In this document: in pieces, positions 2,860 to 21,836 of the stretch
How positions within the stretch are numbered: position 1 is the stretch's first letter
Layout of the letters: every line of letters starts with the position of its first letter
Virus record (IMG/VR): IMGVR_UViG_3300008954_003257
Location: 1 to 23,006 of that record
DNA from: a virus
Reading direction: 5' to 3' (one strand)
DNA length: 23,006 nucleotides
Notes under the pieces: generated by a model
The model's database searches: none
What the model saw: the letters and a program-made list of their open reading frames with translations, nothing else
What the model was told of the DNA's origin: nothing
Position numbers and translations under genes: made by a program

Positions 2860-2871
2860 AATATTTACACT
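2860..2871 (-). promoter_or_regulatory. Late-promoter-like motif, copy A
   Basis: Reads AGTGTAAATATT on the minus strand, with GTGTAA 9 nt before the ATG at 2855. One of nine near-identical intergenic copies. The promoter role is inferred from recurrence and placement. Confidence 0.6.
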
Positions 2872-2875
2872 AATA

Positions 2876-3313
2876 TTAAAAACCTTCACCCATTAATTTT
2901 TTGGCTTTATCGTGATTAGGGTGATTTGGATCCGAAATGGAAAGAGGCGTCTCCATTACAATAGACCTGGTCCCCTTCGTTACGCGCTTAAACTCTTCCC
3001 TTAGCTTTTGTTTCATACGCGCCCGGGAGCTATCGGGAAAAACCCCCACTTTGGTACATAGGTTTTGCAAATCGCTCACGGTAGACTCCGCCATACTTTT
3101 TTCAAATATTTCTGGCTCATTGGTACCAAAGGGGTTTGTGGTTTTAATTCCTAGTACTTCCTCAAGATCGGCCACTTTTTTCAACGTCTCATCGTCAATT
3201 TTTCCAGTGGTAAAATTCTGAAGATCTTCTAAGGAAGACGTTTTTTTGGATGCCGTAGCCTTCTTCGATTTGGCGGTAGCTTTTCTTTTTTTTGCTTTCT
3301 TTTTCGCTGCCAT
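2876..3313 (-). CDS. Lys-rich protein with SAP-like helix-loop-helix
   Basis: A 145-residue protein. Residues 1-25 are a histone-tail-like run of Lys/Ala/Thr/Ser (starting MAAKKKAKKRKATAK). Residues about 77-108 (STVSDLQNLCTKVGVFP then SSRARMKQKLREEF) match the layout of a SAP or HeH DNA-binding domain: helix, extended loop, second helix ending in a basic Lys-x-x-Leu-Arg pattern. SAP domains bind AT-rich DNA, so a nucleic-acid-binding role inside or around the capsid is plausible; this is inference. The gene follows the coat gene after a strong terminator and has its own motif copy B 8 nt before its ATG, so it is probably transcribed separately from the coat gene. It could also be a structural protein whose basic tail contacts packaged DNA. 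Confidence 0.6.
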   Translation of the reverse strand: MAAKKKAKKRKATAKSKKATASKKTSSLEDLQNFTTGKIDDETLKKVADLEEVLGIKTTNPFGTNEPEIFEKSMAESTVSDLQNLCTKVGVFPDSSRARMKQKLREEFKRVTKGTRSIVMETPLSISDPNHPNHDKAKKLMGEGF

Positions 3314-3316
3314 ATC

Positions 3317-3328
3317 TAATATTACATC
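3317..3328 (-). promoter_or_regulatory. Late-promoter-like motif, copy B (weaker)
   Basis: Reads GATGTAATATTA on the minus strand; TGTAA ends 8 nt before the ATG at 3313. It differs from the consensus by GATGTAA in place of AGTGTAA. It sits directly downstream of the coat-gene terminator, where a new promoter is needed. Confidence 0.5.
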
Positions 3329-3345
3329 TAAAAAGGGTTTTTTCC

Positions 3346-3380
3346 AAAAAAAAACTCCACCCCGTTACCGGGGTGGAGTT
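3346..3380 (-). terminator. Rho-independent terminator after the coat gene
   Basis: On the minus strand a 12-bp stem (AACTCCACCCCG paired across a 4-base loop) is followed by T9 that partly overlaps the stem (plus-strand A9 at 3346-3354). It lies 19 nt beyond the coat-protein stop and separates the abundant coat message from the two genes that follow. Confidence 0.92.
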
Positions 3381-3398
3381 GTAATAACATTTAGCTGA

Positions 3399-4553
3399 TT
3401 ACATGATCAAGCCAACTAAGGCCCTATCATCCAACACCATACGTCCCTCCTCTAACGCGCCGTAATAACCAATTCTCTGCTGTCTATTAGAGAACTGATC
3501 GTCGGCGACCAAGTTAAACTCGGAACCGGTTTCAGAATCAACTGCGATAGCACGAACAAAGGCATCACGCGTACGGTCTATACCGACGATGATTTCCTCA
3601 GTAGCGCCAGCGAATGCACTTGAAGCAGTCGTGGAGCCATTGTCCAAGTAATCCGTAGTACCAGCAACCGTATCAAACACATCATTGAAACGTTTGCCAA
3701 CACCAAGCTCAAGAATCTCCATGATAGAAATACCATAGAATTCAGTCAAACCAGATTGACCGAAGATCTTCTCGCGCTCAGGATCAACCAATGTAACGGG
3801 CTGAGAAGTCGCGCCAACAGCTGCACCATTAGGAGCGAGCGTGTTGATTGGCTGGTAAGCCATTGCACGAATCTTTTCCACTACCTCCGGGGAAACCAAA
3901 AGGTCAGTTAGACCCTTACGGGCTCCTGTCGGAGTGCCGCCGTCCCATGAAGCATTGACTCTCTTGATCTTGGTGAATAACTTATTTAAGTCATCCAACA
4001 ATAAACGATCAGCCTGAGCCGTTCTGAAAACGTGACGGTTGGTAGCCTCCAAAGCGGCGGTACCAGTCTTAGCGTTTGCCAAGGCCGTCATAAGCAGATT
4101 CGAAGACGTTCTTTCCTGCTTAATCAGAACTTCTTGTGCTACACGAGTGAAGGTTTTACCGATCACATCTAGTCTTGAACGAGACGCGTATTTCTTATCG
4201 AAAGAAACGGCGCTGTCCAGATGATATGTGGCAAACTTCAGTTCGGAAGCGGTAGGTTGCACATAGTTGGTGGGAAGACCACCAGCTACGGATTGACTGT
4301 AAACACGGATGTAATCTTCATCGAAGATATTGTAGTACAAATCCAACGGAATAGAAGGATTGTCATCAGCGTTATACTGTAACGGAGTGAATAGGTTACT
4401 CACGGTAGGAGCATTATTGATAACTTCGGCCAAAACCGGACCAATAAACTCTGCCAGAGCAACTTGAGCCGCATAGGCGGTATCGCGGTTACGCGAAGCC
4501 ATAGCCTTGACTAATTCGATCTGCTCATCGGTTCTTTTTAATGTAATTTTCAT
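3399..4553 (-). CDS. Major capsid protein (HK97-fold type)
   Basis: A 384-residue protein placed after the protease-scaffold and a small capsid-associated gene, the usual slot of the coat protein. The N-terminal helical region (QIELVKAMASRNRDTAYAAQ) is followed by PTVSNLFTPLQYNADDNPSI, and the middle has KKYASRSRLDVIGKTFTRVA and a long helix ending LIKQERTSSNLLMTALANA. The C-terminal third holds IVGIDRTRDAFVRAIAVDSE and a tail ending DDRALVGLIM. Size and layout fit coat proteins of phages with HK97-type capsids; the lineage within that fold is uncertain. Upstream is AAAGGAA 14 nt before the ATG, one of very few Shine-Dalgarno-like sites here, which fits a highly translated gene. A strong terminator follows at once. 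Confidence 0.82.
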   Translation of the reverse strand: MKITLKRTDEQIELVKAMASRNRDTAYAAQVALAEFIGPVLAEVINNAPTVSNLFTPLQYNADDNPSIPLDLYYNIFDEDYIRVYSQSVAGGLPTNYVQPTASELKFATYHLDSAVSFDKKYASRSRLDVIGKTFTRVAQEVLIKQERTSSNLLMTALANAKTGTAALEATNRHVFRTAQADRLLLDDLNKLFTKIKRVNASWDGGTPTGARKGLTDLLVSPEVVEKIRAMAYQPINTLAPNGAAVGATSQPVTLVDPEREKIFGQSGLTEFYGISIMEILELGVGKRFNDVFDTVAGTTDYLDNGSTTASSAFAGATEEIIVGIDRTRDAFVRAIAVDSETGSEFNLVADDQFSNRQQRIGYYGALEEGRMVLDDRALVGLIM

Positions 4554-4585
4554 TATATTATATTAATTCCTTTCTAGTTTAAGGT

Positions 4586-5251
4586 TTATGCAACATCCCA
4601 TGAAGCAGAGACGTCCAGCTGAACCAATGCATACTGTGCCGTACCTGTACCAGCGAACTCATCAGATTTACCCATCTGAGAAGTTCTATTACCGGTACCG
4701 ATAATATGGCCCACTAGCGTTTCCGCTGTACCCTGAGCCAGACTTTCACGTGTGACACCAGTTAACTTGCCAGCGTTTGCAGAAACAGCGGCGATGTTAC
4801 CCGGAACGAAGTTGGTGTCTTTTTCGTAAGCATTTTCATCGAAGGTGAACAAGCCTTTCGTAGCGACCGGGCAAGCCTGACCACTGAGAACAGCCTGAAG
4901 TTCATCTTTTTTGACTGGGTTATAAAGGAGTTTTTCTCCGTTCTCGTCATTCTGAAGCGTTTGATTCAGAGTAACGCCTAAGACGGCAGAACCGGTTGTA
5001 GCAGCTACAACTCGTAAAGGCACGACAGGATACTTATCTGCACCCAAGAAGGGGTAGTCAGTTTTTCCGAGATAGGTACTTCCGATCAAATCGAAAGTAT
5101 CTTTCTGCATATTGCCGCTCAATACCTTTACAAGCACACCTGCACTACCGTTACCGTTGGTTGTGGGATTATCATCAACCACCTGATTGGCGTACATGTT
5201 GATAACATCATGATCGCTATATTGCCTAAATGGATATAATCTTAGTGCCAT
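4586..5251 (-). CDS. Putative capsid decoration/head protein
   Basis: A 221-residue protein between the protease-scaffold (21 nt upstream) and the coat gene (32 nt downstream). It begins MALRLYPFRQYSDHDVINMY and continues as a beta-rich, Gly/Thr/Val-rich chain (SAGVLVKVLSG, VVPLRVVAATTGSAVLGVTL, ETLVGHIIGTGNRT), ending in QLDVSASWDVA. There is no signal peptide, helix bundle or catalytic motif. A small beta-rich gene just before the coat gene is commonly a head decoration or stabilisation protein, so that is the working call; it rests on position and fold style only. The leader is AT-rich without a Shine-Dalgarno site or a clear motif copy, so it may be co-transcribed with the upstream genes. 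Confidence 0.55.
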   Translation of the reverse strand: MALRLYPFRQYSDHDVINMYANQVVDDNPTTNGNGSAGVLVKVLSGNMQKDTFDLIGSTYLGKTDYPFLGADKYPVVPLRVVAATTGSAVLGVTLNQTLQNDENGEKLLYNPVKKDELQAVLSGQACPVATKGLFTFDENAYEKDTNFVPGNIAAVSANAGKLTGVTRESLAQGTAETLVGHIIGTGNRTSQMGKSDEFAGTGTAQYALVQLDVSASWDVA

Positions 5252-5272
5252 AATAGTTTAGTAATTATAAGG

Positions 5273-6853
5273 TTAATAGGTTATGGAAATATTTTGCGAG
5301 CTGAAGGCCTTCTTGAATTTATCTTCAAGAGATTCCTCAGCAGAAGATGCCTCGTTATTGTTCGCCATAGTAGAATGAGGAACCTCAACGTTTTCCACTA
5401 CATCTTCAACGGTTTCGCCAGTTTCTTCCGTAACTGATGAGGTAGCATTAGCGGTAGTTTCCTGCGCTAAACGCTGCTCAACAGCCTCTTGTATCCGCGC
5501 CTCGAACTGCATTTCCTGTTCCGCTTTAAAAGCTTTGCTCTTATGTTGTAACAAGGATGCCAGTCGTGACTGGTAATCCTCAAAAGCAGCCTCGGCACTA
5601 TCAAGAGCTTTAACCTCAGCCGCCAACACACTACGGTCTTGGTCTGTAAGTTCATAAAGCTCATCAATAGATTCCATTCTGCTATTGAATAACTCTTCTG
5701 CCGCAGCAGTGTTGATAGAGGTCTCTAGAGAATTAATCTTCTCATCAGCGGCCTCTAACTTATTCTGAAGCTCTTCGATAGAAGATTTGGCTTCCTCAGC
5801 ATCTTTTTGAGCCTGAATTTTATCAGTCTCAATAGCTTTCTTTTCGGCCTGCCACTGCTCGTCCTTCTCACGAATCTTATCGATCACATGAGAAGCGACA
5901 TTAGCGACGGCTTCCTGAGAGAACTCAGCTTTGTCAGACAACTTCGAATCGAGGATCTTCTCGAACTCTGTTTTGAATTCTGTGATATCCATAGTCTTAG
6001 TAGTTTTTACATTATTTATTTCACTTTGTGAAATTTTTAAAATATTTTTTTCCATTTCCCCTTCAAATTTTTGGGGGGCTGTTCCGTCCCTTGTGTCGTT
6101 GACGGTTAAATCTATGTTTTTTTCTATTACAAGCCCACTTACGTCTGCGGCAGGATTAGTAGTAAACCCAATACCTAGCGGAAAAACTTCCCCCACCACT
6201 AAACGATAAACAGGCGTTCCATCATCCAAAGCGCCTGACCCCTCAAAGGTCTTTAGGTGCTTTTTCATTTCTTCAATTTGAACCGGATTGGTTATAATTT
6301 CAGCGTCTTTTAGGTCTTGAGACCCCACTGCAATCACATAATCATTAAACCCAAGCTCCCAACTAGCAGAAATTTTCTTAAAATAAGGATCGTCTTCGTC
6401 ACTAGATCTTAAGAGCACCTCCGCAAAATCCTTATTGACCGTTTTATATATGACAGAAGCTAAAGAAATGTAATAAGGGTCTTTGGTGGCCAATGCGGCA
6501 CCATTACCTATAATCTTGTCATTATTGAGGTCAGTGAAGCCTGCGTTAACAATATGCCCCACCACCTTCTGTTTCTTATGCTCTATATTGGTTGGCTTAT
6601 GAACAAAGTAATCAATAAGCTCTACAGCCGTTTCGGAATCGATGCCATCTCCATTGCGGTTAAATTTGTTAACAATGGCCGCATTGAACGCTACGCCTAT
6701 TAAATCGACGTTTCTCTCTAAATCAATGGATTTGGGAATAAGAGGCTTAAGATTCTCCAATGATGCTAAACTAATATTTAGATCGTTTTCTAAATCTGCT
6801 GTCGCGTAGATATCAAAAAGATATTCGGTTTTATACTTAAATTTATCTGACAT
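5273..6853 (-). CDS. Prohead protease fused to a scaffold domain
   Basis: A 526-residue protein. Residues 1-245 look like a prohead maturation protease of the herpesvirus-assemblin/T4 gp21 type: FNRNGDGIDSE, then NIEHKKQKVVGHI with candidate catalytic His92, and KKISASWELGF with candidate Ser162 or Ser164. After a linker, residues about 290-465 are a charged, Glu/Lys/Ala/Gln-rich coiled coil typical of internal scaffolds, followed by an acidic Ser/Thr tail and a terminal helix (EESLEDKFKKAFSSQ). One chain therefore probably supplies both the protease and the scaffold it removes. Met288 opens the scaffold half, so an internal start producing free scaffold is possible, although no Shine-Dalgarno site precedes it. 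Portal lies upstream and coat downstream, as expected. Motif copy F precedes the gene. Confidence 0.8.
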   Translation of the reverse strand: MSDKFKYKTEYLFDIYATADLENDLNISLASLENLKPLIPKSIDLERNVDLIGVAFNAAIVNKFNRNGDGIDSETAVELIDYFVHKPTNIEHKKQKVVGHIVNAGFTDLNNDKIIGNGAALATKDPYYISLASVIYKTVNKDFAEVLLRSSDEDDPYFKKISASWELGFNDYVIAVGSQDLKDAEIITNPVQIEEMKKHLKTFEGSGALDDGTPVYRLVVGEVFPLGIGFTTNPAADVSGLVIEKNIDLTVNDTRDGTAPQKFEGEMEKNILKISQSEINNVKTTKTMDITEFKTEFEKILDSKLSDKAEFSQEAVANVASHVIDKIREKDEQWQAEKKAIETDKIQAQKDAEEAKSSIEELQNKLEAADEKINSLETSINTAAAEELFNSRMESIDELYELTDQDRSVLAAEVKALDSAEAAFEDYQSRLASLLQHKSKAFKAEQEMQFEARIQEAVEQRLAQETTANATSSVTEETGETVEDVVENVEVPHSTMANNNEASSAEESLEDKFKKAFSSQNISITY

Positions 6854-6860
6854 TACATAA

Positions 6861-6872
6861 AAATGTTACACA
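6861..6872 (-). promoter_or_regulatory. Late-promoter-like motif, copy F
   Basis: Reads TGTGTAACATTT on the minus strand, with GTGTAA 12 nt before the ATG at 6853. It lies in the 22-nt gap after the portal stop. Confidence 0.5.
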
Positions 6873-6875
6873 TTT

Positions 6876-8924
6876 TTATTTCTGTAGAGAATTTTTTCTA
6901 CTGTGATGCAAGATTGCCGCCGCGTAATCATCGAGCTCATGCTCAGCACTTATATCAACCACTTCCTTAAGAGGCTTTAAATCAATTAACTTAGCTGCAT
7001 TTTTAATACATGATTTAGCGGTCGAAAGCCAATCCTTCGGATTTTTGGCGATTACTACGGATTCACAGACTTTTTCTAGAACAGATGTCTGATGTTTATT
7101 TAACCTTTTTCTTTTGAAAACTTTTTTGGCTTCCGTTACCAAGGTAGCATATAAATTATTAGTGTCATCTACAGTCTCCTTGATGTCTTGAACCGAATAC
7201 TTAGTCTTAGCCAACGTTTTAGAGCCTACAGGTCGCCCCGGACGAGAAGGGCTTTTGCCCCTGTTGTTCTTCTTTTCCTCGTAGCGCCGCCTTTGATCTA
7301 GTAGCTTTGCGCCCTCCGGATGCCTAATCTCTTCGATTTCCTCTTCCTCTTCGAAGTCCATTGGCATAGGGGTTCCCCCCACCAACGGGTTATAATACCC
7401 CTTTTGCCTATCGTCCACAAATTTTTCTTGCGCCTTTTCCAACGTAGGAGCATCGGGAAACACACCAGTATCGATAACCTTCATCCCTTGCTCTGGAGGC
7501 AAAATACCCAACTCCATCATACGCGTAATCACTCTTTGTATTTGCGCTGGATCCTTTAGATCTATTGTTTCAAATTTAGCTGTAGGTATATCTCTGAAAC
7601 CAAAGTTTTTGCAGAGCTGCCGTATTTCCGCTTGTAAAAATTCATTTAAAAAGGTGTCCCTCGCCTCCTTCAGGCGCTGTAGGAACATTTGAGCTTTCAC
7701 CTCTGTACTTGCAAATTTTTCTTGACTTAAAATAATATTCTGCAACCCTTCCTTGATGTCCTGATTGACCACCTCGTATTTAGATGGACCAATTACCCTT
7801 TGAATATCTGGTATAATAAATTCCGCTTTAGTGGTATAATCGCTCACTAAAATACGACCAACACTTTGGTTTTGAAATAGCGCTTGCATTGCGCGAATAT
7901 TACGAGGGTTTATTCCTCCATTATCTGGAGTGGTTCCCATCGTGATGAGCAATACCACATTTTCTATGGTCCTGCAGATCGACTGGTCTATTTTTTTCAT
8001 CTCCATTTTAAAGTTAATATCATCCAAAACTGGAAATCCAAAAGGAATAGCAAAAGGCTCGTAATCCTGCTTTTTATAAAAAGCATACCTTAGTCTTTCT
8101 GGGTTAAGCTTCACCTTGATACCGTCGATAGCCCAACTATCACTTTTTACCCTTTTCTTTATATTGGCAGGAAGGGCATCATAAATTTCACGATCTTCTT
8201 CGGTTTTGGGATCCCGAAGCCTCTCCACCTCATACTCACTTAATACTTTGGCATATAAACCAAACCGATCAAACGAAGTAGCTCGCTGAGCAACAACCCC
8301 ATAAGGATTCAACAAAATATACCTAACAGGAATTTTATTGCTCATCATGTTAATGCCCAAGTTTCTTACCTTTGAAAAATCGTCTGCTTTAAATTTGCTT
8401 TGCAACGTGTATAAAAATATATTTCCGCTCCTGTAAAACTCTCTAAAAAACTGGTCTTTTAAATTCCATATTTTAATTTTCTTAAACCACGCATTAATAA
8501 ACTCTCTGGACTTTGCGCTTCCCCCTTCTAAATAAAGTTGAGAGTTGGCGAAATCCGCCATGGTGTCAACCGAGTTTCTAAAAACAGCTATGTTGGCATA
8601 AGCTTTCTGGCATAACTCTATGGCATCTCGCACATTTACTCCGTCAATAGAATACTGGTAAGGCAATAGCCCGGCCCTGATGTTGGCATATTTGTAGAGC
8701 ATAGGGGCAACCGCAATATTGTTGCGCCTAAGCTCGGTGGCTGACCCTCCCGAAGAGGTGCGCGAATAAGCTTGAGCTTCGTAATTATAAAAAGACTCCC
8801 CTATCAGTTGAGGTTCGAACCCATCTTTAGAGGTTGCCTTCATGATATTTTCGATAGGTTGGTTCTTTTTCTGAATCTTTTCCCAATAATCAGAGCGTTT
8901 GGTATATTTTCTTTTGGCTGCCAT
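6876..8924 (-). CDS. Portal protein with long basic C-terminal extension
   Basis: A 682-residue protein directly downstream of the large terminase, the standard portal position. The core (about 30-515) has a portal-like layout: FRNSVDTMADFANSQLYLEG, the wing region with KDQFFREFYRSGNIFLYTL, NPERLRYAFYKKQDYEPFAI, and a long stem/crown helix region KAQMFLQRLKEARDTFLNEF. It ends with the MELGILPPEQGMKVIDTG pattern familiar from portals. Beyond that comes an acidic run (FEEEEEIEEI, 524-533), a basic linker with an AT-hook-like RPGRPVGSK at 561-569, and a helical domain of about 110 residues. The N-terminus is also basic (AAKRKYTKR). Motif copy C lies upstream. The core call is firm by size and context; the role of the tail is unknown. 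Confidence 0.82.
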   Translation of the reverse strand: MAAKRKYTKRSDYWEKIQKKNQPIENIMKATSKDGFEPQLIGESFYNYEAQAYSRTSSGGSATELRRNNIAVAPMLYKYANIRAGLLPYQYSIDGVNVRDAIELCQKAYANIAVFRNSVDTMADFANSQLYLEGGSAKSREFINAWFKKIKIWNLKDQFFREFYRSGNIFLYTLQSKFKADDFSKVRNLGINMMSNKIPVRYILLNPYGVVAQRATSFDRFGLYAKVLSEYEVERLRDPKTEEDREIYDALPANIKKRVKSDSWAIDGIKVKLNPERLRYAFYKKQDYEPFAIPFGFPVLDDINFKMEMKKIDQSICRTIENVVLLITMGTTPDNGGINPRNIRAMQALFQNQSVGRILVSDYTTKAEFIIPDIQRVIGPSKYEVVNQDIKEGLQNIILSQEKFASTEVKAQMFLQRLKEARDTFLNEFLQAEIRQLCKNFGFRDIPTAKFETIDLKDPAQIQRVITRMMELGILPPEQGMKVIDTGVFPDAPTLEKAQEKFVDDRQKGYYNPLVGGTPMPMDFEEEEEIEEIRHPEGAKLLDQRRRYEEKKNNRGKSPSRPGRPVGSKTLAKTKYSVQDIKETVDDTNNLYATLVTEAKKVFKRKRLNKHQTSVLEKVCESVVIAKNPKDWLSTAKSCIKNAAKLIDLKPLKEVVDISAEHELDDYAAAILHHSRKNSLQK

Positions 8925-8931: not shown

Positions 8932-8943
8932 TAATATTACACT
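8932..8943 (-). promoter_or_regulatory. Late-promoter-like motif, copy C
   Basis: Reads AGTGTAATATTA on the minus strand, the consensus itself, with GTGTAA 12 nt before the portal ATG at 8924. Two tandem AAAGTnACTTT palindromes lie immediately upstream. Confidence 0.65.
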
Positions 8944-8944
8944 T

Positions 8945-8976
8945 AAAGTCCTCAAAGTGACTTTGAAAGTTACTTT
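8945..8976. repeat. Tandem AAAGT-n-ACTTT palindromes
   Basis: AAAGTGACTTT at 8954-8964 and AAAGTTACTTT at 8966-8976 are two palindromes on a 12-bp period, preceded by a half site AAAGT at 8945-8949. They fill the gap between the terminase stop and the portal promoter-like motif. Candidate operator for the portal promoter, or a DNA-packaging recognition site; function is inferred from layout only. Confidence 0.6.
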
Positions 8977-10786
8977 ACATTATAAATAAAGGCTCGAAAG
9001 TTTCCACAACATCTTCTGCTGGCTGTGATTGTGCGTCAAGATACACCTTAGCCATCCAATTTGCTAACACTAAAGCTGAATAAGAATCCTTACGGGCTTT
9101 ATCTGGCCCACTTTGCCTACGCAAATTAGAGGGTAGATCAAAAGTTTGCGTGCCTTGCGCAGTGGTAGTAATCTGAACCAAGGCGCACTCATTCTTGGTA
9201 AGCTCTATCATGTCCGACTGATGTTCAATAAAGTCAATCATTTTAGCGCCAGCGGTTTGCTTAGACTCTTCCGAGGTGCGTAAAAATTTGAGGTCGGTGA
9301 TAGGAATGCTTTGGCGCTTTTGCTTGGAGTAAGAATCGTCAATTGCACGACTTGCAAAATACAGTCTTCGGTGATCAAAGTTTGCTTGCAGGAGCTCGTT
9401 GGCTTGTCGAATCCAATTGCTCGTTGGTTTTCGTAGCACAATGTGTTGATAGTTTTCTTTGTTGTATTGTCTTTTATAAGACCTTATGTCTTTTTGATAT
9501 TCCTCAGGTTTATCAAGCCCCACCTCTATGGTTTGCAATTTAATTTTTTTCTGCTTGAAGGTTTCGCTTTCGTTGCAAGCCTGCATAAACTGAACACCAC
9601 CGTTGTAGTCTCCGCATAGGGCCACAATATTAAAATTTTCTAAGCAAAATAAAAAATATTTGATATGATGCTTTAGCGACGTTCCAGACAAAGCATAACT
9701 ATGAACCAACGTAACGCTCTGGTTCTCTTTGTTTAATTTTAAAATTTGAATCGCAAAATCATCAGAACTTTCTGTTTGAGACCATGATGGGTCAAAAGCT
9801 AAAATGTACTCGCCGTCAGGATCCCCTTTGACTTCTACGCAAGGAAGATCGCCATCCGGCACGGTACACAAAGCCATTTTGCTGGTTTTGAAATAACCCG
9901 AACTATCATCTGTAAAGGTAGCCCCAAACTCCCGCTCAAACTGAGACTGACTCATTGTAGCCTTAGCTTGATTGATCAAGTTTTCATCATATAATAGCTG
10001 AGGGGCACAGTCATAACTATATCGCATTATACATCTAGAGGCCTTGTCTTTTTGATTCTCCAATGAGATAAGATGCTCAAACTGCGTATAAAGTTTATAC
10101 AAATATTCAAACTTATAAGATGCTGATGAAAGAGCAATAAGTTTATTGTTGGGCCAAACATGTCGATCTCCTTCAGTCATTTTATTTTCCTTTATAAGTC
10201 TTGTCTCTAACCTAAAGAGATCGTCGCGCTGAGTAGGGTTTTCAACTACAGACAAAAACGGAACAATAACTTCGTTATAAATTCTTTCAGGCATCAAAGC
10301 AAACTCATCAATAATTATTCGATGAAACCGAAACCCACGAAGTTTCTCTCCGTCACCCAACGGCAAAGCCCGGATGCGACTAGCCCCAATTTCCATCAAC
10401 CACTCATCATTGCTCTTTGACGTCTTTGTTATACACTGTCTAAAAAACGCAGCTTCAGGCTTGTTTGCCATATCCTCGATTTTCTTAAAAATCATCTTTG
10501 CCTGCCTAAACGATTTGGACAATATTCCTATCTCTACCCCTTGATTTAATATCGCATCTAAGGCAGCAAAAACTCCAGTTGTAAAAGATTTCGACATGCC
10601 TCGAGCCCACACGCCTAAAAAATAATCCGTTTCAAACATAGACTTAATAGCCATATGTTGGAACGGAAATAACTTCACCCCTAAAATTAAATCAGTAGTA
10701 AAAGTAATATTATTTCTGAGAAATTCATAAAGGGCAATCTTAGCTTCCTTTTCTTCCAGAAAGCCTTCGATCTTCATCATCTCCAT
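8975..10786 (-). CDS. terL: Terminase large subunit (packaging ATPase-nuclease)
   Basis: A 603-residue protein with both terminase domains, which powers DNA translocation into the prohead and cuts the concatemer. ATPase: a deviant Walker A in VWARGMSKSFTTG (residues 59-71), Walker B RIIIDEFALM (156-165, with catalytic-type Glu161), and a coupling-motif-like LIALSSAS (216-222). RNase H-type nuclease: candidate metal-binding Asp332 (LAFDPSW), Asp393 (ALCGDYNGG) and Asp567 (KDSYSALVLANW). The portal gene follows. The first codons are ATG GAG ATG ATG, so initiation at Met3 or Met4 using the internal GGAG cannot be excluded. No late-motif copy precedes it, and the 40-nt gap has AAGGGAGAAC 30 nt upstream, so it is probably expressed from the upstream operon. 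Confidence 0.95.
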   Translation of the reverse strand: MEMMKIEGFLEEKEAKIALYEFLRNNITFTTDLILGVKLFPFQHMAIKSMFETDYFLGVWARGMSKSFTTGVFAALDAILNQGVEIGILSKSFRQAKMIFKKIEDMANKPEAAFFRQCITKTSKSNDEWLMEIGASRIRALPLGDGEKLRGFRFHRIIIDEFALMPERIYNEVIVPFLSVVENPTQRDDLFRLETRLIKENKMTEGDRHVWPNNKLIALSSASYKFEYLYKLYTQFEHLISLENQKDKASRCIMRYSYDCAPQLLYDENLINQAKATMSQSQFEREFGATFTDDSSGYFKTSKMALCTVPDGDLPCVEVKGDPDGEYILAFDPSWSQTESSDDFAIQILKLNKENQSVTLVHSYALSGTSLKHHIKYFLFCLENFNIVALCGDYNGGVQFMQACNESETFKQKKIKLQTIEVGLDKPEEYQKDIRSYKRQYNKENYQHIVLRKPTSNWIRQANELLQANFDHRRLYFASRAIDDSYSKQKRQSIPITDLKFLRTSEESKQTAGAKMIDFIEHQSDMIELTKNECALVQITTTAQGTQTFDLPSNLRRQSGPDKARKDSYSALVLANWMAKVYLDAQSQPAEDVVETFEPLFIM

Positions 10787-13964: not shown

Positions 13965-14687
13965 TTAAGTTACGGGGTTATTTTCTAGTTTATTTACAAT
14001 AAATTTCAAAATTTCACTCCTAAGGATATCCTCCTTAGTGAACTTAAAAGTATACACCCCTTTTTTCCTAGATGCCTCATCATCAAACAAATTCATGATA
14101 GAAATAAAGCCTGTTTTTCCGTTAATGTCTGGCTGCATTGGGTCTCCGCATATAAAATACTTAGAGTTTTCGCCAATTCTGGTAATCAGGGTAACCAATT
14201 CCTTCTTGGTAAAATTTTGAGATTCGTCGGCAATAATGAGCTTATTTGCCCAACTCGCGCCGCGTAAAAAATTAATTGGCGCACATTGGATTATTTTTTC
14301 ATCTACCAGCATTTTTATTTGACTTGGCTCTAGTAATTCAGCTAACTTGTCTTGCATTGGCATCATAAAAGGATTAAACTTTTCGTGCACATCTCCGGGC
14401 AGACTCCCTAAGTTCCTATCAGCGCTTTCTGCAATAGTGCGAACATAAAACAAGTCTTGATGCATGTTCATGTTAAACAATTGCAAAGCCGCATAAATAG
14501 AAATAAAAGTTTTAGAGGATCCCGCGGGACCAGAAACAAAAACTATTTTTGTGTTTTTGTCGAATGCTATTTTTAAAAACTGGTGTTGTTTTTTTGTTAA
14601 TTCAAAATTATTAAGATAAAGCTTGTATTTGTTTTCAATGGGTATTATCTTTTCCGACGCCGTGGACTTCTTCCGTCTACTCATCAT
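13965..14687 (-). CDS. phoH: PhoH-like ATPase
   Basis: A 240-residue P-loop protein covering the whole PhoH domain. Walker A is VFVSGPAGSSKTF (about residues 49-61), Walker B LIIADESQNF, with sensor-type FICGDPMQPD and the family segment LPGDVHEKFNPFMMPMQDKL. PhoH proteins are helicase-like ATPases very common in marine phages; their role in infection is unsettled and probably concerns RNA. It is the first gene of the minus-strand block, with motif copy D immediately before ATG ATG (the second Met is an equally possible start). The basic N-terminus (MMSRRKKSTASEK) precedes the domain. Confidence 0.93.
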   Translation of the reverse strand: MMSRRKKSTASEKIIPIENKYKLYLNNFELTKKQHQFLKIAFDKNTKIVFVSGPAGSSKTFISIYAALQLFNMNMHQDLFYVRTIAESADRNLGSLPGDVHEKFNPFMMPMQDKLAELLEPSQIKMLVDEKIIQCAPINFLRGASWANKLIIADESQNFTKKELVTLITRIGENSKYFICGDPMQPDINGKTGFISIMNLFDDEASRKKGVYTFKFTKEDILRSEILKFIVNKLENNPVT

Positions 14688-14688
14688 T

Positions 14689-14700
14689 AAATATTACACT
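14689..14700 (-). promoter_or_regulatory. Late-promoter-like motif, copy D
   Basis: Reads AGTGTAATATTT on the minus strand, GTGTAA ending 6 nt before the first and 9 nt before the second ATG of phoH. It abuts the -35-like hexamer of the divergent plus-strand promoter. Confidence 0.62.
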
Positions 14701-14727
14701 TGACTTGTCTTTTTTTTCCGTTATAAT
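14700..14727 (+). promoter_or_regulatory. Sigma70-type promoter for the glycosyltransferase
   Basis: TTGACT (14700-14705), a 16-bp spacer, then a perfect TATAAT (14722-14727). The predicted start of transcription is near 14734, only about 3 nt before the ATG at 14737, so the message would be leaderless or nearly so. Expected to be read by host housekeeping polymerase, that is early. Confidence 0.7.
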
Positions 14728-14736
14728 TAAAACAAA

Positions 14737-15837
14737 ATGGTTTTTCACGTATTAGCGGTCCCTGTTTACCCTACGCAAAGAGAAATAACAATTTGTCCTT
14801 TCACGCAAAAGGTTTACAAATTTTGCAAAGCAATGACGGAGCGGGGTCACACCGTTTTTCATTATGGTCATCCGGCTTCGGAAGCGCAATGTACCCAACA
14901 CTTTGATGTTGTTTCTGTGGAGACTTATAATGAAGTTTACAAAAAAAAAAGCTGGAGGGATTTTCATTCTCAACACATTAACAACAAGGTTCACCAAGAG
15001 TTCAATAAAAACGCAACCACGTTAATAAAAAAAAACAAACAATCTGAGCATGATTTTGTACTAGCATTTTGGGGGATCGGTCATGCCGCGGCTTGTGAAG
15101 ATCTTGATGGTTTTTATGTGGTGGAACCCAGCATTGGATATGACTCGGCCTTTGCACCTTTTAAAGTTTTTGAATCTTATGCGCAGTGGCACAAGATTCT
15201 TTATAAAATAAACGAAAAAGGGATGCCCAGCTTTACGGATCACGTTATCCCCCCGGGTTTCTATTTTGAAGATTTTCAGTATAGCAACCAAAAAGATGAC
15301 TACCTTCTTTTTTTAGGGAGAATGATTGACGAAAAAGGGTTGCATATTGCAGAATCCCTCTCTAAGTTATCTGGTCTCCCTATTAAATTCGTAGGCCCCC
15401 AGACTTTTAAAAATACCCTTTCAAAAGACAATCCGTTGGCAGAATATATTCATACCGTGAGCCTTAAGGAACGTCAACAATTATTGTCAAAAGCCAAAGC
15501 GCTTATCATGCCCAGCTTATATGCCGAACCCTGTGGGTGGGCTATGATTGAAGCTTTTGCTTCCGGAACCCCTGTTTTATCTACAGATTGGGGAGGGTTA
15601 GGAGAATACAACATTCATGGAAAAACAGGCTTCAGCTGCCATTCTTTAAATGAATTTTATCACGCTCTTCATATGGTGGAAACTATTGACCCAGCATACT
15701 GTCGCCAATATGCAGAAAATACTTTTAACATTGATTTGATAATGAAAATGTATGAAAACTACTTTGAACATATCATAGATTACAGCCAACATGAAAAGGG
15801 CATCATAAAAGAAAAATGCCACTTTTTAAAAAAATAA
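14737..15837 (+). CDS. Glycosyltransferase, GT4 family, GT-B fold
   Basis: A 366-residue retaining glycosyltransferase. The donor-binding half is diagnostic: DDYLLFLGRMIDEKGLHIA, KALIMPSLYAEPCGWAMIEA with the Glu-x7-Glu signature (EPCGWAMIE), and GTPVLSTDWGGLGEYN then HGKTGF. The N-terminal half has the acceptor domain starting HVLAVPVYPTQREIT and the GHTVFHYGH strand. No membrane segment, so it is a cytosolic enzyme. The acceptor cannot be read from sequence: candidates are modified phage DNA, a virion protein or host surface glycan. It is the first plus-strand gene after phoH, driven by a host-type promoter, which suggests early expression. The gene is AT-rich with A-tracts, like the neighbouring phage genes. 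The next gene starts 10 nt after the stop. Confidence 0.88.
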   Translation: MVFHVLAVPVYPTQREITICPFTQKVYKFCKAMTERGHTVFHYGHPASEAQCTQHFDVVSVETYNEVYKKKSWRDFHSQHINNKVHQEFNKNATTLIKKNKQSEHDFVLAFWGIGHAAACEDLDGFYVVEPSIGYDSAFAPFKVFESYAQWHKILYKINEKGMPSFTDHVIPPGFYFEDFQYSNQKDDYLLFLGRMIDEKGLHIAESLSKLSGLPIKFVGPQTFKNTLSKDNPLAEYIHTVSLKERQQLLSKAKALIMPSLYAEPCGWAMIEAFASGTPVLSTDWGGLGEYNIHGKTGFSCHSLNEFYHALHMVETIDPAYCRQYAENTFNIDLIMKMYENYFEHIIDYSQHEKGIIKEKCHFLKK

Positions 15838-15848
15838 GTGTAAACATA
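15837..15848 (+). promoter_or_regulatory. Late-promoter-like motif, copy G
   Basis: AGTGTAAACATA overlapping the glycosyltransferase stop; GTGTAA ends 4 nt before ATG 15848 and 10 nt before ATG 15854. The spacing of other copies (6-12 nt) favours the second ATG. Confidence 0.5.
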
Positions 15849-17729: not shown

Positions 17730-17741
17730 AATATTTACACT
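17730..17741 (-). promoter_or_regulatory. Late-promoter-like motif, copy E
   Basis: Reads AGTGTAAATATT on the minus strand, GTGTAA ending 8 nt before the ATG at 17726, which settles the start of the exported protein. Divergent from copy H 116 nt away; the stretch between contains only AT-rich DNA with T-tracts. Confidence 0.65.
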
Positions 17742-17856
17742 GCAGGAATCGTGCCAGAACTTTTTTTTTGTTTTATTGGCTTTTAAGCCTCGACTCCTCG
17801 TTATGTTGAGTAATAACACCCATTATTAAATAAATTACGGGAAATATTCCCCACAA

Positions 17857-17868
17857 AGTGTAATAATA
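17857..17868 (+). promoter_or_regulatory. Late-promoter-like motif, copy H
   Basis: AGTGTAATAATA with GTGTAA ending 8 nt before the GTG at 17872, supporting that unusual start for the lipoprotein and the five-gene cassette behind it. Confidence 0.62.
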
Positions 17869-17871
17869 TAT

Positions 17872-18114
17872 GTGAGATGTTTTTTAAAATATTTTGTTTT
17901 AATCTTATTGCTAACGGGGTGTAAATCTGTAGATGACAATGGTCGTCTAGAAAAAATAAGAATCATGGTCCCCGCTCTTATTGATATAGAATTTGATTAT
18001 TATAAAGACAAGGAAAATAAAGGAAAAGGAGTTGTGAGCGATAGCTCAACAAACTCTACCCCTATTATAAAGTGGCCCAAGTACAACCAGCTAATGCCAA
18101 TGTCAAAAGACTAA
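17872..18114 (+). CDS. Small lipoprotein
   Basis: An 80-residue protein starting at GTG 17872, chosen because the motif spacing fits and no ATG in frame precedes the signal. It has a short lipoprotein signal (FLKYFVLILLLTGC) with a lipobox Leu-Thr-Gly-Cys and lipidation at Cys17. The mature part is about 64 residues: charged, with IRIMVPALIDIEFDYYKDKE and a Pro/Trp segment (TPIIKWPKYNQLMP). Asp18 is absent (Lys-Ser follow Cys), so sorting to the outer membrane is likely by the E. coli rule. First gene of a five-gene envelope cassette; the next start is 1 nt beyond its stop. It could be an outer-membrane spanin-like or exclusion lipoprotein; I cannot choose. Confidence 0.72.
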   Translation: MRCFLKYFVLILLLTGCKSVDDNGRLEKIRIMVPALIDIEFDYYKDKENKGKGVVSDSSTNSTPIIKWPKYNQLMPMSKD

Positions 18115-18115
18115 A

Positions 18116-18262
18116 ATGTATAAATACAAGAACGTTCCCATTGAAACGCCCAAAGACCATTGCGTTGATATATTACGTAATAACGAGGCGCAACACCCTT
18201 GCGATCCTCGCTTCGGTCCACCGTTTCCACCACACCCCGAAAAACACCCAAATGACAAGTGA
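18116..18262 (+). CDS. Pro-rich 48-residue protein
   Basis: A 48-codon frame from ATG 18116, 1 nt after the lipoprotein stop, to TGA at 18260-18262, filling the otherwise unexplained gap before the MscS-like gene. The product begins MYKYKNVPIETPKDHCVDIL and ends with a Pro/His-rich tail (CDPRFGPPFPPHPEKHPND), containing two Cys. There is no membrane segment. The tight packing on both sides and the distinctive composition support a real gene; the function is unknown. Confidence 0.55.
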   Translation: MYKYKNVPIETPKDHCVDILRNNEAQHPCDPRFGPPFPPHPEKHPNDK

Positions 18263-18277
18263 AACAAATAAAAACTT

Positions 18278-18709
18278 ATGGATGGACTAACCAACTTAAC
18301 TAATTTACTAAACAACACTAATTTAGTAAATCAATTGTCCAACTTAAAATCGGAAGAAGTAGAGGGCATTGCCAAAAGTTTATTTTCGGAATACGGGTGG
18401 ATTTTCGCGGCTGGCGTGATAGCTCTTTTGGCCAAAGACGTCATGATTAACCTAGTAAAAGGCATGTTGATATTTTATGGGCACGATTTTGATAACGACG
18501 ATGTTATTTATATTAGCGGTCGTCAGGCACGCATTGTACGCGTTGGCGTTACACGTACCACTTTCTACATGAGTGACCGTAAAACTAAAATGGTCGTTCC
18601 AAATGAACAGCTTAAAGAATTAACTATAGAAAAAACCCTTGGAGTGAATGGAGGGTCACCTTATTTACCTAAAGGTGGAGAGCCGGGGTTCGACCCTAAA
18701 ATAAAATAA
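18278..18709 (+). CDS. MscS-like mini-protein (pore helix + beta domain)
   Basis: A 143-residue protein. After an Asn/Leu-rich N-terminal helix there is one hydrophobic segment at about 40-66 (WIFAAGVIALLAKDVMINLV). Then comes a stretch that matches the MscS beta domain: FYGHDFDNDDVIYISGRQAR, IVRVGVTRTTFYMSDRKTKM, VVPNEQLKELTIEK, including the invariant-type Pro108-Asn109. Full MscS channels have three or more membrane segments and a C-terminal alpha-beta domain; here only the pore-proximal helix and beta domain remain, followed by a Gly/Pro-rich tail. It could form a reduced channel, modulate the host MscS, or serve as a holin-like protein. The gap to the upstream gene is 15 nt and to the next gene 1 nt. 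Confidence 0.72.
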   Translation: MDGLTNLTNLLNNTNLVNQLSNLKSEEVEGIAKSLFSEYGWIFAAGVIALLAKDVMINLVKGMLIFYGHDFDNDDVIYISGRQARIVRVGVTRTTFYMSDRKTKMVVPNEQLKELTIEKTLGVNGGSPYLPKGGEPGFDPKIK

Positions 18710-18710
18710 T

Positions 18711-18932
18711 ATGAAAAAGAAAGCATTAACGACTAAAAACTATATAGCAATAGCTATCATCGCTGCAGCCATCGGAGGATGGTTTTGGTATTCCAATAAT
18801 AAAGAAGAGATAAAAGAAAAAGTTGTTGAAACCGTAATTGAAAAAACAGTGTATAACGTTGTAGACGAAGCCGCTGATGACGTAAAAGAAAAAACAGTGG
18901 AAAAAATAACCAATTTAATCAATAATAAATAA
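18711..18932 (+). CDS. Small single-pass membrane protein
   Basis: A 73-residue protein with a basic N-terminus (MKKKALTTK), one membrane segment at about 11-27 (YIAIAIIAAAIGGWFWY) and a Glu/Lys/Val-rich amphipathic helix containing imperfect repeats (KEKVVETVIEKTVYNVV and VKEKTVEKITNL). The positive-inside rule places the helix in the periplasm, as in inner-membrane spanins, but it lacks other identifying features. It starts 1 nt after the MscS-like gene, and its stop is directly followed by the next ATG (TAAATG), so it belongs to the same operon. Translation probably relies on coupling; no Shine-Dalgarno site. Confidence 0.65.
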   Translation: MKKKALTTKNYIAIAIIAAAIGGWFWYSNNKEEIKEKVVETVIEKTVYNVVDEAADDVKEKTVEKITNLINNK

Positions 18933-19130
18933 ATGTCCGATTATACATATCAATTCAACCGACAAGAAGATATAGATCCCACAGGAGGCCTTGTAGCCGA
19001 AGATATATGCACAACCATTCGCGGTGCAGATCCTACCTTAGATCAGGTTCTTAGTGGCCTAAGTAGCTTTGTTCCTGCATGTGGGTTCAATTTGAATGGC
19101 AGCGGCATTGGCGTTGTCGCTTCTGAGTAG
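18933..19130 (+). CDS. Small hypothetical protein
   Basis: A 65-residue protein whose ATG abuts the previous stop. It starts MSDYTYQFNRQEDIDPTGG, has two Cys and a weakly hydrophobic Gly/Ser-rich end (SGLSSFVPACGFNLNGSGIG). Not recognised. The opening shares Tyr-x-Tyr-Gln-Phe with the protein at 16210-16650. It closes the envelope cassette; two hairpins follow. Confidence 0.55.
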   Translation: MSDYTYQFNRQEDIDPTGGLVAEDICTTIRGADPTLDQVLSGLSSFVPACGFNLNGSGIGVVASE

Positions 19131-19158
19131 AGTTTAGCAGAAGTTCCTTCAGTCACAC

Positions 19159-19215
19159 CACCTTGATGTAACCAAGGTGCGCGTAGAGCTTTCTTTAAAA
19201 GTAATCTTTTAAAGA
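19159..19215. terminator. Two hairpins between convergent genes
   Basis: First a 7-bp stem CACCTTG (19159-19165) / CAAGGTG (19173-19179), then a perfect 10-bp stem TCTTTAAAAG (19192-19201) / CTTTTAAAGA (19206-19215) with a TAAT loop. Neither is followed by a clean T-tract, so they may be weak terminators or RNA-stabilising ends for the convergent messages ending at 19130 (plus) and 19227 (minus). Confidence 0.5.
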
Positions 19216-19226
19216 TGGTTGCAATT

Positions 19227-19808
19227 TTATGGCTTCCCCAGCGAACCAGAGTGATCGCTCTTTTCCACTAAAAAGTCCTCCATAATAAGACAATCTAAAT
19301 CGGAATTCCAAAATGTTTTCAATGCGTCTGACGGGCTGTCTACCAATGGTTCTCCCCTTAGATTGAAACTGGTGTTCATAAAAACAGGAACACCTGAAAG
19401 TTTTTCAAAATTTACTAAGGCTTGATGAATAACCGGGTTTTGCTTGTTGCTAATGGATTGCGGCCGACAGGTGCCATCCACATGCGTTACCGCAGGAATC
19501 CTCAACCTCCACTCTTCTTTAACGGGAGCGGCAATTAACATAAAGGGGGACAGATGCTTTAACTCTACAATCTCATGAAAAGATTCCTCTTTTATTACGG
19601 GAGCCAGCGGCCTCCAAAATTCACGATTTTTAATTTTATTTACTCTGTTTAAATTTTCTTTTATAGTTGGATTAGCTAAGATACTACGGTGACACAGAGC
19701 GCGCGGTCCTATTTCCGCTCTTCCTGCAAAATATCCTACCACTTTATTCTCATGGATAAGTTGAGGTAAAACCGTTTCAACTTCTATATTTTTATAGTGT
19801 AACTTCAT
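19227..19808 (-). CDS. Carbamoyltransferase, C-terminal domain (split gene)
   Basis: A 193-residue protein equal to the C-terminal (YrdC-like side) domain of NodU/CmcH/TobZ-type carbamoyltransferases. Signature segments: VVGYFAGRAEIGPRALCHRS (family form has RALGxRS, so Cys replaces Gly), ILANPTIKENLNRVNKIKNR, EFWRPLAPVIKEE, VDGTCRPQS and MNTSFNLRGEPLVDSPSDAL. In the family this domain makes carbamoyl-adenylate from carbamoyl phosphate and ATP, and the other domain passes it to a hydroxyl group. It starts inside the stop of the N-terminal gene (ATGA at 19805-19808), and no conserved segment seems lost at the junction, so the two chains can rebuild the whole enzyme. A simple sequencing or natural frameshift cannot be excluded. 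Confidence 0.85.
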   Translation of the reverse strand: MKLHYKNIEVETVLPQLIHENKVVGYFAGRAEIGPRALCHRSILANPTIKENLNRVNKIKNREFWRPLAPVIKEESFHEIVELKHLSPFMLIAAPVKEEWRLRIPAVTHVDGTCRPQSISNKQNPVIHQALVNFEKLSGVPVFMNTSFNLRGEPLVDSPSDALKTFWNSDLDCLIMEDFLVEKSDHSGSLGKP

Positions 19809-20935
19809 GGTTCAAAAGTCTTTATGTAATGTTCTATTTGAGCTTTATTAAATTTAGATCCCCAATACGCCGTAGGAAAATCTATTCTAGGGAACGACCC
19901 TCGTTCCTGATAATGAGTCACCAACGCAGCACCCAAGGCACTCCCCGTATCATGAGAAGCTGGGTGTACAAAAATATTATCAACAAAATCCTGTTCTAAT
20001 AGCTTTCCGTTAGCGGAACAATTTAATACCGAACCTCCAGTTAAAACAAAATCACGACAACCCGTTTTATTGTAAATAATTTTTGCAGTATCAATTAAAA
20101 TTTCTTCTAAATATTTTTGAGCAGTATGCGCTAAATTTACCGCAACCTCACTTAAAATCCCCTCTGACAGAATCTGCTCTCCCTTTTCTTCCTTGAGTTT
20201 TGTTAGCCACTCATCTATGGTATTACGATCTATTTGAAGTAACCCCCCTTCATTACGGAAAAACAGTTCGCGAGGAAGTAGCTTTTCGTCATATTGGCCA
20301 TAGCTGGCGAGACCCATTGTTTTACCTTCTTCGCGATGAGGCACAAAACCTAAAAAATCAGTAATTTTTTCGTAAAAGGTGCCAATAGACCCGATACAAT
20401 GAAACCAAGCGTGCTCCTCTAGCGATTTCCCATTAAAAAACCCAACGGAGCCCGCTCTTTGCCCTCCGTCGCCATCAATAGAAATATAATTACAAGAGTC
20501 AAAAGGAGCGCACGCAAGGCTGCTAAAAATATGGGTATCATGGTGATCCTGCCAGTAGATATGGCCTACCGGTAAACCGCTAAGGCAAATATCTCTCACC
20601 CAATCTGCTTCGTAGTATATTTCTAAATCAGCTCCCCGGTCAAATTCGATCCTCTCAAAACCTTTATTGACATATCGGGCAAACTCATGAGTGCTAACTA
20701 CTTTCCATATGTCTTGTACAGAAGAGTAGCCAACCCCCACCTTTACGATATCGTGTGTACTTATGCCAGCCTCATTCAAACAAAAATTTATGGCATTCTC
20801 AGGAAACAAATGGGGAGCTTGCTTTACTCTGCTAAACCGCTCTTCTTCCGCAAATGCAATTAATTTACCATCCCCCAAAAGACAGGCAGCTTGATTGTAA
20901 GAAAATTTATGGGTAATACCTAGAATGTAGCGCAT
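19805..20935 (-). CDS. Carbamoyltransferase, N-terminal domain (split gene)
   Basis: A 376-residue protein matching the N-terminal Kae1-like domain of the NodU/TobZ family: MRYILGITHKFSYNQAACLL, AEEERFSRVKQ (30-39), the His motif QDHHDTHIFSS (residues 129-139), ISIDGDGGQ, GTFYEKITDFLGFVPHREEG then KTMGLASYG, LTGGSVLNCSANGKLL and PASHDTGSALGAAL. It catalyses transfer of the carbamoyl group to a hydroxyl of the acceptor, in known cases sugars, antibiotics or Nod factors. With the 193-residue partner the total is 569 residues, normal for the one-chain enzyme. It diverges from the putative glycosyltransferase at 20991, so a glycan or modified nucleoside acceptor is likely; this is inference. Confidence 0.88.
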   Translation of the reverse strand: MRYILGITHKFSYNQAACLLGDGKLIAFAEEERFSRVKQAPHLFPENAINFCLNEAGISTHDIVKVGVGYSSVQDIWKVVSTHEFARYVNKGFERIEFDRGADLEIYYEADWVRDICLSGLPVGHIYWQDHHDTHIFSSLACAPFDSCNYISIDGDGGQRAGSVGFFNGKSLEEHAWFHCIGSIGTFYEKITDFLGFVPHREEGKTMGLASYGQYDEKLLPRELFFRNEGGLLQIDRNTIDEWLTKLKEEKGEQILSEGILSEVAVNLAHTAQKYLEEILIDTAKIIYNKTGCRDFVLTGGSVLNCSANGKLLEQDFVDNIFVHPASHDTGSALGAALVTHYQERGSFPRIDFPTAYWGSKFNKAQIEHYIKTFEP

Positions 20936-20990
20936 ATAATGAATGATAATTTGCTACTTTAAAAAGTCTATTTTTTTACAAACATTAGTA

Positions 20991-21812
20991 ATGGATTTTT
21001 TACTCGAAAACCAACGTATTAAATTTTTAAAAAAAGGGGCTAACCGAAAAGCCTTTGTTTTTTACACCGGGCTTTCGTACTATCCTAATTTTTACCATTG
21101 CGAAACAGGCTGGCATTTTGACCTTGATATGGAGTTCGGTTATGACAACCATGTGAAACAACTTCACCAACCTTTGGAAAAAATGGGATATGAAGTAAAT
21201 TGCGCTATCATCACAAATAAGGAGAACAATCCCAAATATAACAAGTATTTAAAAATGTATAATGCGCTAGATATGAATTACGCCGGGGATGTTAGTGACT
21301 ACGAAATTGAAACAATGATAAATTATTTCAAAGTACGTTACGAGCGCTTTGATGCCTTTTCGTTTGGTTTTCCTATTCAGGGCTTCCGCTTCCTCACAAT
21401 TCAAGATCCTATTCCTTCTGCGGATATTTACATTTTCATAAGATGTGATTTAACCTTAAAAAAACCAATTAATCAAATCAATATTGATTACAATAAAATT
21501 AATTACCTCTGGAAAGAAGAAGGAATCAACCGAGCTAAAGAAGAAAGTATTTCTAACGTACACGATCCAAACTCAGGGTGGAGTAGGCATTATCGAGTAT
21601 GCGGCAACATGCTTCACGTGGTTAATAAAAAATATATTAAATCTTTTTTAACTCACTACTGGATGGAGCACTGTTCAATGCAAGCCCTTCTAAGAGATTG
21701 CGACTCAATAACTTTCGAAGATTTTCACATTGTATGCGGGGATAAAATGTATGACTCCTGCACAGAAAGACAAGCCAACCCTATTTTCAATCATGCAAGA
21801 AAAAGGGTGTAA
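20991..21812 (+). CDS. Possible glycosyltransferase (weak)
   Basis: A protein of 273 residues from ATG 20991, or 289 from ATG 20943. I prefer 20991 because the earlier start lies only 7 nt from the divergent carbamoyltransferase start and leaves no room for two promoters. It has no membrane segment or signal peptide. Segments such as KAFVFYTGLSYYPNFYHCET, GDVSDYEIETMINYFKVRYE, ADIYIFIRCDLTLKKPI and MLHVVNKKYIKSFLTHYW have the flavour of bacterial and phage sugar transferases (Asp-containing IRCDLTL as a possible metal/nucleotide site), but no family signature is certain. The pairing with a carbamoyltransferase supports a glycan-modifying role. Confidence 0.45.
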   Translation: MDFLLENQRIKFLKKGANRKAFVFYTGLSYYPNFYHCETGWHFDLDMEFGYDNHVKQLHQPLEKMGYEVNCAIITNKENNPKYNKYLKMYNALDMNYAGDVSDYEIETMINYFKVRYERFDAFSFGFPIQGFRFLTIQDPIPSADIYIFIRCDLTLKKPINQINIDYNKINYLWKEEGINRAKEESISNVHDPNSGWSRHYRVCGNMLHVVNKKYIKSFLTHYWMEHCSMQALLRDCDSITFEDFHIVCGDKMYDSCTERQANPIFNHARKRV

Positions 21813-21824
21813 AAAAAATATTTA

Positions 21825-21836
21825 AGTGTAAAATAA
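21825..21836 (+). promoter_or_regulatory. Late-promoter-like motif, copy I
   Basis: AGTGTAAAATAA, the only copy far from a start: GTGTAA ends 80 nt before the ATG at 21912. The leader in between holds a 7-bp inverted pair AAGATAC / GTATCTT around 21841-21868. Confidence 0.45.

Follow-up and report, generated by a model that had tools for sequence, protein, structure and literature searches.

A -10-only GTGTA-type motif abutting start codons: a candidate late-promoter class with leaderless mRNAs in an uncultured phage group

What starts transcription, and what starts translation, at genes that carry the same short motif a few bases ahead of their start codons? The question is raised by IMG/VR record IMGVR_UViG_3300008954_003257, whose complete 23,006 bases (the window) are a fragment of an uncultured siphovirus-like phage. 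Its genes include a terminase, an ERCC4 nuclease, a PhoH gene and a protein with sigma-70 region 2. A first reading of the window, made from its sequence alone (the sequence-only reading), had proposed nine copies of the motif as a new late-promoter class giving leaderless mRNAs. After tests in more than 80 related contigs, this is the best-supported reading. We consider it likely that the motif is a late promoter made up of a -10 element only, that it is read by a phage sigma factor, and that the resulting mRNAs are leaderless or nearly so.

All nine stretches are present in the window at the positions and on the strands given for them. The 12-mer put forward as the motif, AGTGTAATATTA, fared less well: its core and placement are borne out, but as a rigid unit it is too strict and occurs exactly only at 8932-8943. 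With up to two mismatches it has 7 matches in the window against 3.0 expected, a number reached by 6 of 100 shuffles, and two of the 7 (10701 on plus and 13083 on minus) lie inside genes. The 12-mer by itself is not significant, and we rejected it as the motif unit. What carries the information is a core, NGTGTA[A/T], with an A/T-rich and almost G-free stretch behind it; written out in full, the consensus is [A/n]GTGTAWnnT with an A/T-rich tail. AGTGTA is found in 5 of the 27 upstream regions of the window against 0.11 expected (p ~1e-7). A weight matrix was built from 86 sites of relatives with the window excluded, the scan that the sequence-only reading had proposed as a check. When ~46,000 window positions were scored with it, the copies at 21825, 17730, 2860, 14689, 8932 and 17857 took ranks 1-6, and those at 15837 and 6861 ranked 8th and 11th. 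The ninth stretch, GATGTAATATTA at 3317-3328 on the minus strand, has no GTGTA core and was missed by the matrix. We removed it from the class; its orthologues look like TTGGAA-N17-TAATAT, and it is probably a different, sigma-70-like promoter. The surrounding region, 3313-3398, holds a terminator-like hairpin and T-run after the capsid-position gene, followed by the TTGGAA-N17-TAATAT element, which is conserved in relatives.

The relatives comprise 84 contigs (1.27 Mb), with genes called by a simple method based on open reading frames (ORFs). Gene starts were chosen independently of the motif for the operon-gap, Shine-Dalgarno and per-contig k-mer counts, and with knowledge of the motif for the orthologue-family counts, the Shine-Dalgarno counts by gap length and the block counts in the relative G019. 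AGTGTAA occurs 327 times across the 84 contigs, and 151 of these copies immediately precede a start on their own strand; the others are within genes in sense (63) or antisense (84) orientation or elsewhere (29). The reverse complement TTACACT is found before starts in 10 of 327 cases and the reversed AATGTGA in 5 of 115. Permuted motifs behave similarly (AATGTAA 9/339, AGTATAA 4/390, AGTGCAA 0/122), with 0-8% overall for the reversed, reverse-complement and most permuted controls and 0-3% for most one-base changes within the GTGTA core. Two variants are tolerated, AGTGTAT (37/112) and TGTGTAA (27/115). Unrelated phages, used as negative controls, gave 2/32 (MaeS) and 1/25 (a T4 stretch). The distance from GTGTAW to the start is most often 8-13 nt, and beyond ~18 nt counts are no higher than background. 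When the long contigs were tested one by one, AGTGTA or GTGTAA came out first or close to first among the 6-mers preceding starts in nearly all of them, among them G019 and G020, in which the sigma shares ~51% identity with that of the window. Together, the permuted motifs, the reversed sequence, the matrix built without the window and the unrelated phages led us to reject chance: the motif is real, and it is general.

The motif marks the heads of structural operons. It is present in 3 of 434 genes with a co-directional upstream gap below 10 nt, against 34-62% of genes with co-directional gaps of 10-99 nt and 34% of divergent genes. Counted by gene family, the enrichment at operon heads is 28/203 against 2/94 (p 0.0014). 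Among orthologue families, it is regularly found before the portal-like gene, the PhoH gene and the genes 5273-6853 and 2301-2855 (Table 1), and is absent before the ERCC4 (0/73), sigma (0/49) and terminase genes. It is also absent before the capsid-position gene 3399-4553 (0/31), which has Shine-Dalgarno sites in 27 of 31 relatives. In the 103.8 kb relative G019, 9 of the 46 genes in two end blocks carry the motif, including head genes, against 6 of 121 in the middle (p 0.006). The portal label comes from gene position and from one relative that matches PHROG portal families (E 1e-4); a structure model of the protein was too poor for use (mean predicted local distance difference test score 46), and a PDB sequence search gave no useful match. 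Between the terminase and the portal-like gene, upstream of the motif, repeated AAAGT/ACTTT elements (AAAGTCACTTT, 8944-8975) are kept in many relatives, and these may be an operator or activator site.

Table 1. Candidate promoter copies and associated genes in the window (leaders and starts are predictions)
Feature	Position	Strand	Context	Predicted start and leader
Candidate late promoter AGTGTAAATATT	2860..2871	minus	gene 2301-2855; motif in 15/22 orthologous genes	transcription start 2856/2855, at ATG 2855; leaderless
Candidate late promoter TGTGTAACATTT	6861..6872	minus	heads gene 5273-6853; motif in 42/51 orthologues	leader 3-4 nt
Candidate late promoter AGTGTAATATTA	8932..8943	minus	heads portal-like gene; motif in 77/77 orthologues	leader 3-4 nt
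Candidate late promoter AGTGTAATATTT	14689..14700	minus	heads PhoH - zinc ribbon - sigma - ERCC4 nuclease - terminase cluster; motif in 30/37 orthologues	
Candidate late promoter AGTGTAAACATA	15837..15848	plus	motif in 5/8 orthologues	ATG 15854; leader 1-2 nt
Candidate late promoter AGTGTAAATATT	17730..17741	minus	motif in 5/6 orthologues	ATG 17726; leaderless
Candidate late promoter AGTGTAATAATA	17857..17868	plus	divergent from 17730-17741; motif in 5/6 orthologues	GTG 17872; leaderless
Best-scoring motif copy AGTGTAAAATAA	21825..21836	plus	~75 nt before ATG 21912	
Sigma-70-type promoter TTGACT-N16-TATAAT	14700..14727	plus	glycosyltransferase gene 14737-15837; in 16 distinct orthologue upstreams	
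Portal-like gene	6876..8924	minus	motif ahead in 77/77 relatives	
Terminase large subunit	8975..10786	minus	inside operon; motif 0/77	
Phage sigma factor, 239 amino acids	12844..13563	minus	region 2, Cys-rich insert, region-4-like helix-turn-helix; proposed reader of the motif	

The layout of the sites suggests how they might work. The TAWnnT hexamer of the motif ends 5-10 nt before starts, and where the gap is 11-13 nt, 88% of sites have T at position 9 and A predominates at positions 15-16, as would be expected for the last base of a -10 box and a transcription start 6-7 nt further on. A hidden -35 box was looked for and not found: TTGACA-like sequences are found upstream of 4 of 92 sites against 2.8 in shuffles, there is no strong upstream column, and conservation upstream is limited to family-specific stretches. 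In the mechanism we propose, [A/n]GTGTAWnnT with its A/T-rich, G-poor stretch would be the -10 element of a late promoter without a conserved -35, and host RNA polymerase carrying the phage sigma would read it. RNA would start ~6-7 nt after the hexamer, at the start codon or a few bases ahead of it. The late mRNAs would thus be leaderless or have leaders of ~0-5 nt and no Shine-Dalgarno site, while downstream genes of the same operon would use Shine-Dalgarno sites or overlapping starts. A -10 box 5-10 nt before the start together with the absence of a Shine-Dalgarno site, the arrangement that defines a leaderless candidate, is what these genes display. The starts GTG 17872, ATG 17726 and ATG 15854 suggested by the sequence-only reading are supported by motif position, and the 14689 copy likewise supports ATG 14684 rather than 14687 as the predicted start of the PhoH cluster. 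The 21825 copy lies far enough from ATG 21912 that its leader would be ~70 nt; 4 of 9 orthologues of this site have the motif 12 nt before the start instead.

The proposed reader is encoded within a cluster that the motif itself heads, and the late sigma therefore probably boosts its own expression. A region 2 match is present in 21 of the 22 contigs searched, usually exactly one per contig. In the sigma family, Pfam Sigma70_r2 is matched in 22 of 22 relatives and Sigma70_r4_2 in 2. A fold search returned mostly sigma factors, each with a weak E-value (best 0.013), and a PDB sequence search with the sigma alignment gave weak sigma matches only. The protein seems to carry both region 2 and region 4. 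In the Cys-rich insert between them C89, C92, C109 and C121 are invariant, and the insert is perhaps zinc-binding. Phages whose sigma is ~51-56% identical to that of the window keep the motif. Because motif and sigma co-occur and a -35 is absent, we infer that this sigma recognizes the motif. Beyond the orthologue, G019 (L187-L192) has two more sigma-like genes (60254-60454 and 71156-71365), accompanied by a QueF-like gene; elsewhere this contig carries a DNA polymerase III alpha gene.

Could the host sigma-70 holoenzyme, helped by a phage activator, read the motif as an unusual -10 element, leaving the phage sigma to serve another promoter class? TAWnnT fits the sigma-70 -10 pattern TAnnnT, three sigma-like genes are present in G019, and the same phages carry clear sigma-70-type promoters: the relative contigs contain 69 TTGAC-N15-18-TAnnnT sites against 6 for a reversed -35 control. 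Most of them end 6-11 nt ahead of a start, in a wide range of gene families; very short predicted leaders are therefore not peculiar to the late class. Against this explanation, the GTGTA core is nearly fixed and differs from TATAAT, neither a -35 nor a common activator site is seen beyond the family-specific stretches, and the sigma gene is almost always present. We regard it as unlikely, though it fares better than the other alternatives.

A second explanation is that the motif acts in the mRNA, as a translation-initiation element that stands in for a Shine-Dalgarno sequence in recruiting the ribosome. The sequence-only reading had named this alternative, and it would account for the fixed 8-13 nt spacing, the rarity of distant copies and the lack of Shine-Dalgarno sites, which are found in 2 of 246 motif genes against 135 of 943 other genes. 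The low count is partly a matter of room, because the A/T-rich tail fills short gaps. Where the gap is longer the two signals co-exist: with gaps of 14-18 nt, 5 of 31 cases have a Shine-Dalgarno site between motif and start, and with gaps of 7-13 nt 1 of 219 has one (p 1e-4). The position of the motif relative to transcription units argues more directly for a promoter. Intrinsic terminators are located directly upstream of it at 16 sites in several gene families, and the distance from hairpin stem to motif is only 5 nt in one gene family and in G019 (e.g. cctccggtattttaccggaggttttttttGTGTAAatatttatGTG). A gene behind a terminator needs a promoter, and since the motif stands alone there, it would itself be that promoter. 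The motif is almost never found before genes within tight operons and is common at places where a transcript can begin. In addition, read as a -10 box, GTGTAWnnT is spaced from starts just as the sigma-70-type boxes are, and its core does not match the usual anti-Shine-Dalgarno tail, CCUCC. A role in translation initiation is thus quite improbable.

The weakest alternative, that the motif is a regulator binding site blocking or activating an overlapping promoter, draws on the junction between the PhoH and glycosyltransferase genes, where the motif touches the -35 of the opposite promoter, and is very improbable given that the motif is not palindromic, is strictly oriented and is sometimes the sole element between a terminator and a start codon. 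At that junction (14687-14737), the AGTGTAA of the late promoter on the minus strand abuts the -35 box of a sigma-70-type promoter of the form TTACACTTGACT-N16-TATAAT, and most orthologous junctions in the clade of the window retain the shared boundary TTACACTTGACT. Two polymerases cannot occupy the junction together, and late transcription may therefore shut off the glycosyltransferase gene, or the reverse. The junction looks like a mutually exclusive switch.

Several points weigh against a late promoter read by the phage sigma. Many relatives are correlated rather than independent, the contigs are fragments, and the counts depend on simple ORF-based gene calls and starts. The tie between motif and sigma is one of co-occurrence; the motif is weak in contig G013, the main exception, and in one relative, whose sigma is 44% identical, no motif stands out clearly. 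Some consecutive genes each have their own motif copy. Copies that would give long leaders are nearly absent, which is not what an ordinary promoter usually shows and would suit a translation signal as well; Shine-Dalgarno spacing in these phages is similar to motif spacing. Late timing is deduced from gene content only, and one of the G019 end blocks also carries genes for DNA polymerase and helicase.

Late promoters without a -35 that are read by a phage sigma are already known from T4 and Kayvirus; the consensus, the sigma, the strict adjacency to start codons and the proposed leaderless design are what is new here. The late promoters of T4, which depend on gp55, gp33 and gp45, are short and -10-only, lack a -35, use a phage sigma and serve structural genes (PMC2988020). 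The comparison with T4 made by the sequence-only reading holds for this layout, a single -10 box with a phage sigma, and not for the sigma itself, which is not a detectable gp55 relative. The hhalign probability of a relationship was 0.2%, with gp55 as a single sequence and so with limited power, and T4 gp55 matches phrog_234 whereas the window's sigma family matches phrog_1740; we therefore rejected membership in the gp55 family. PF02916, the gp45-type clamp, was matched in 0 of 14 contigs, all possibly fragments, and a control was matched nowhere either. The T4 box TATAAATA is not matched by GTGTAWnnT, and unlike in T4, the window's sigma appears to contain its own region 4 instead of relying on a separate gp33. 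A review of T4 raised the question of why no fused late sigma has been found (PMC2988020), and the single-chain sigma with its -10-only promoter may be such a protein.

The late promoters of the Staphylococcus aureus Kayvirus vB_SauM-515A1 have a long -10 box, TGTTATATTA, no -35 and a start ~6 bp after the box; they lie in the structural region and are attributed to a phage sigma, and the early promoters are of sigma-70 type (PMC7698491). They resemble the class described here in having one -10 box, no -35, an attributed phage sigma and structural genes, and differ in consensus and in phage group, Kayvirus being a firmicute myovirus. Placement hard against start codons is not described for them in the passages considered (PMC7698491). 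In phiKZ and AR9, late promoters are likewise phage-specific with very short motifs, but are read by phage multisubunit RNA polymerases, and AR9 leaders are 26-491 nt long (PMC5312081); here a sigma on the host polymerase is proposed. Work on Deinococcus-Thermus demonstrated promoter activity, with leaderless mRNA as the product, for a TANNNT box lying ~6-7 bp ahead of the ORF (PMC12340547). The window's motif is similarly a TANNNT-type box adjoining the ORF, whereas that system is a host RpoD promoter and the present one is built on a different, GTGTA-type core and belongs to phages that encode a sigma themselves. Thermus phages are said to make leaderless late messages as well.

The phage group around the window is large. 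More than 600 candidate terminase stretches related to the window's terminase were found in viral contigs, and the best terminase match among 50,697 phage records is <30% identical, so that the nearest cultured phage lies below that identity. The long relatives look like siphoviruses because they contain lambda-J-like tail fibre and tape-measure genes. Four GTDB contigs match without fixing the host; the corresponding metagenome-assembled genomes are labelled Verrucomicrobiales, Flavobacteriaceae, Halobacteriovorax and an unnamed bacterium, which are possibly binning errors. At 22768-23004 the window holds the start of a prepilin-type protein (NCBIfam prepilin N-terminal domain, E 6e-9) with a weak match to a Verru_Chthon cassette protein, a possible host gene or host clue. 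Prepilin-type proteins of this kind are common in Verrucomicrobia-like bacteria. Elsewhere in the window, a NodU/CmcH-type carbamoyltransferase at 19227-20935 appears as two overlapping ORFs (N-terminal 19805-20935, C-terminal 19227-19808), presumably a split gene or a frameshift, and a small phage protein at 18278-18709 matches the mechanosensitive-channel beta domain (PF00924, E 1e-5).

More tentatively, and with rather less confidence than we place in the promoter itself, this widespread uncultured lineage may have a one-piece late sigma (region 2, Cys-rich insert and region 4) dedicated to GTGTA promoters that consist only of a -10 element and obligately abut start codons, with a leaderless late programme. 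If this is true, one promoter would set both the RNA start and the protein start. The motif corrects gene starts, names a sigma-promoter pair and makes early-late control approachable from sequence for an abundant phage group without a close cultured member. It also suggests that leaderless translation is the usual mode during infection by these phages, and perhaps in their host too.

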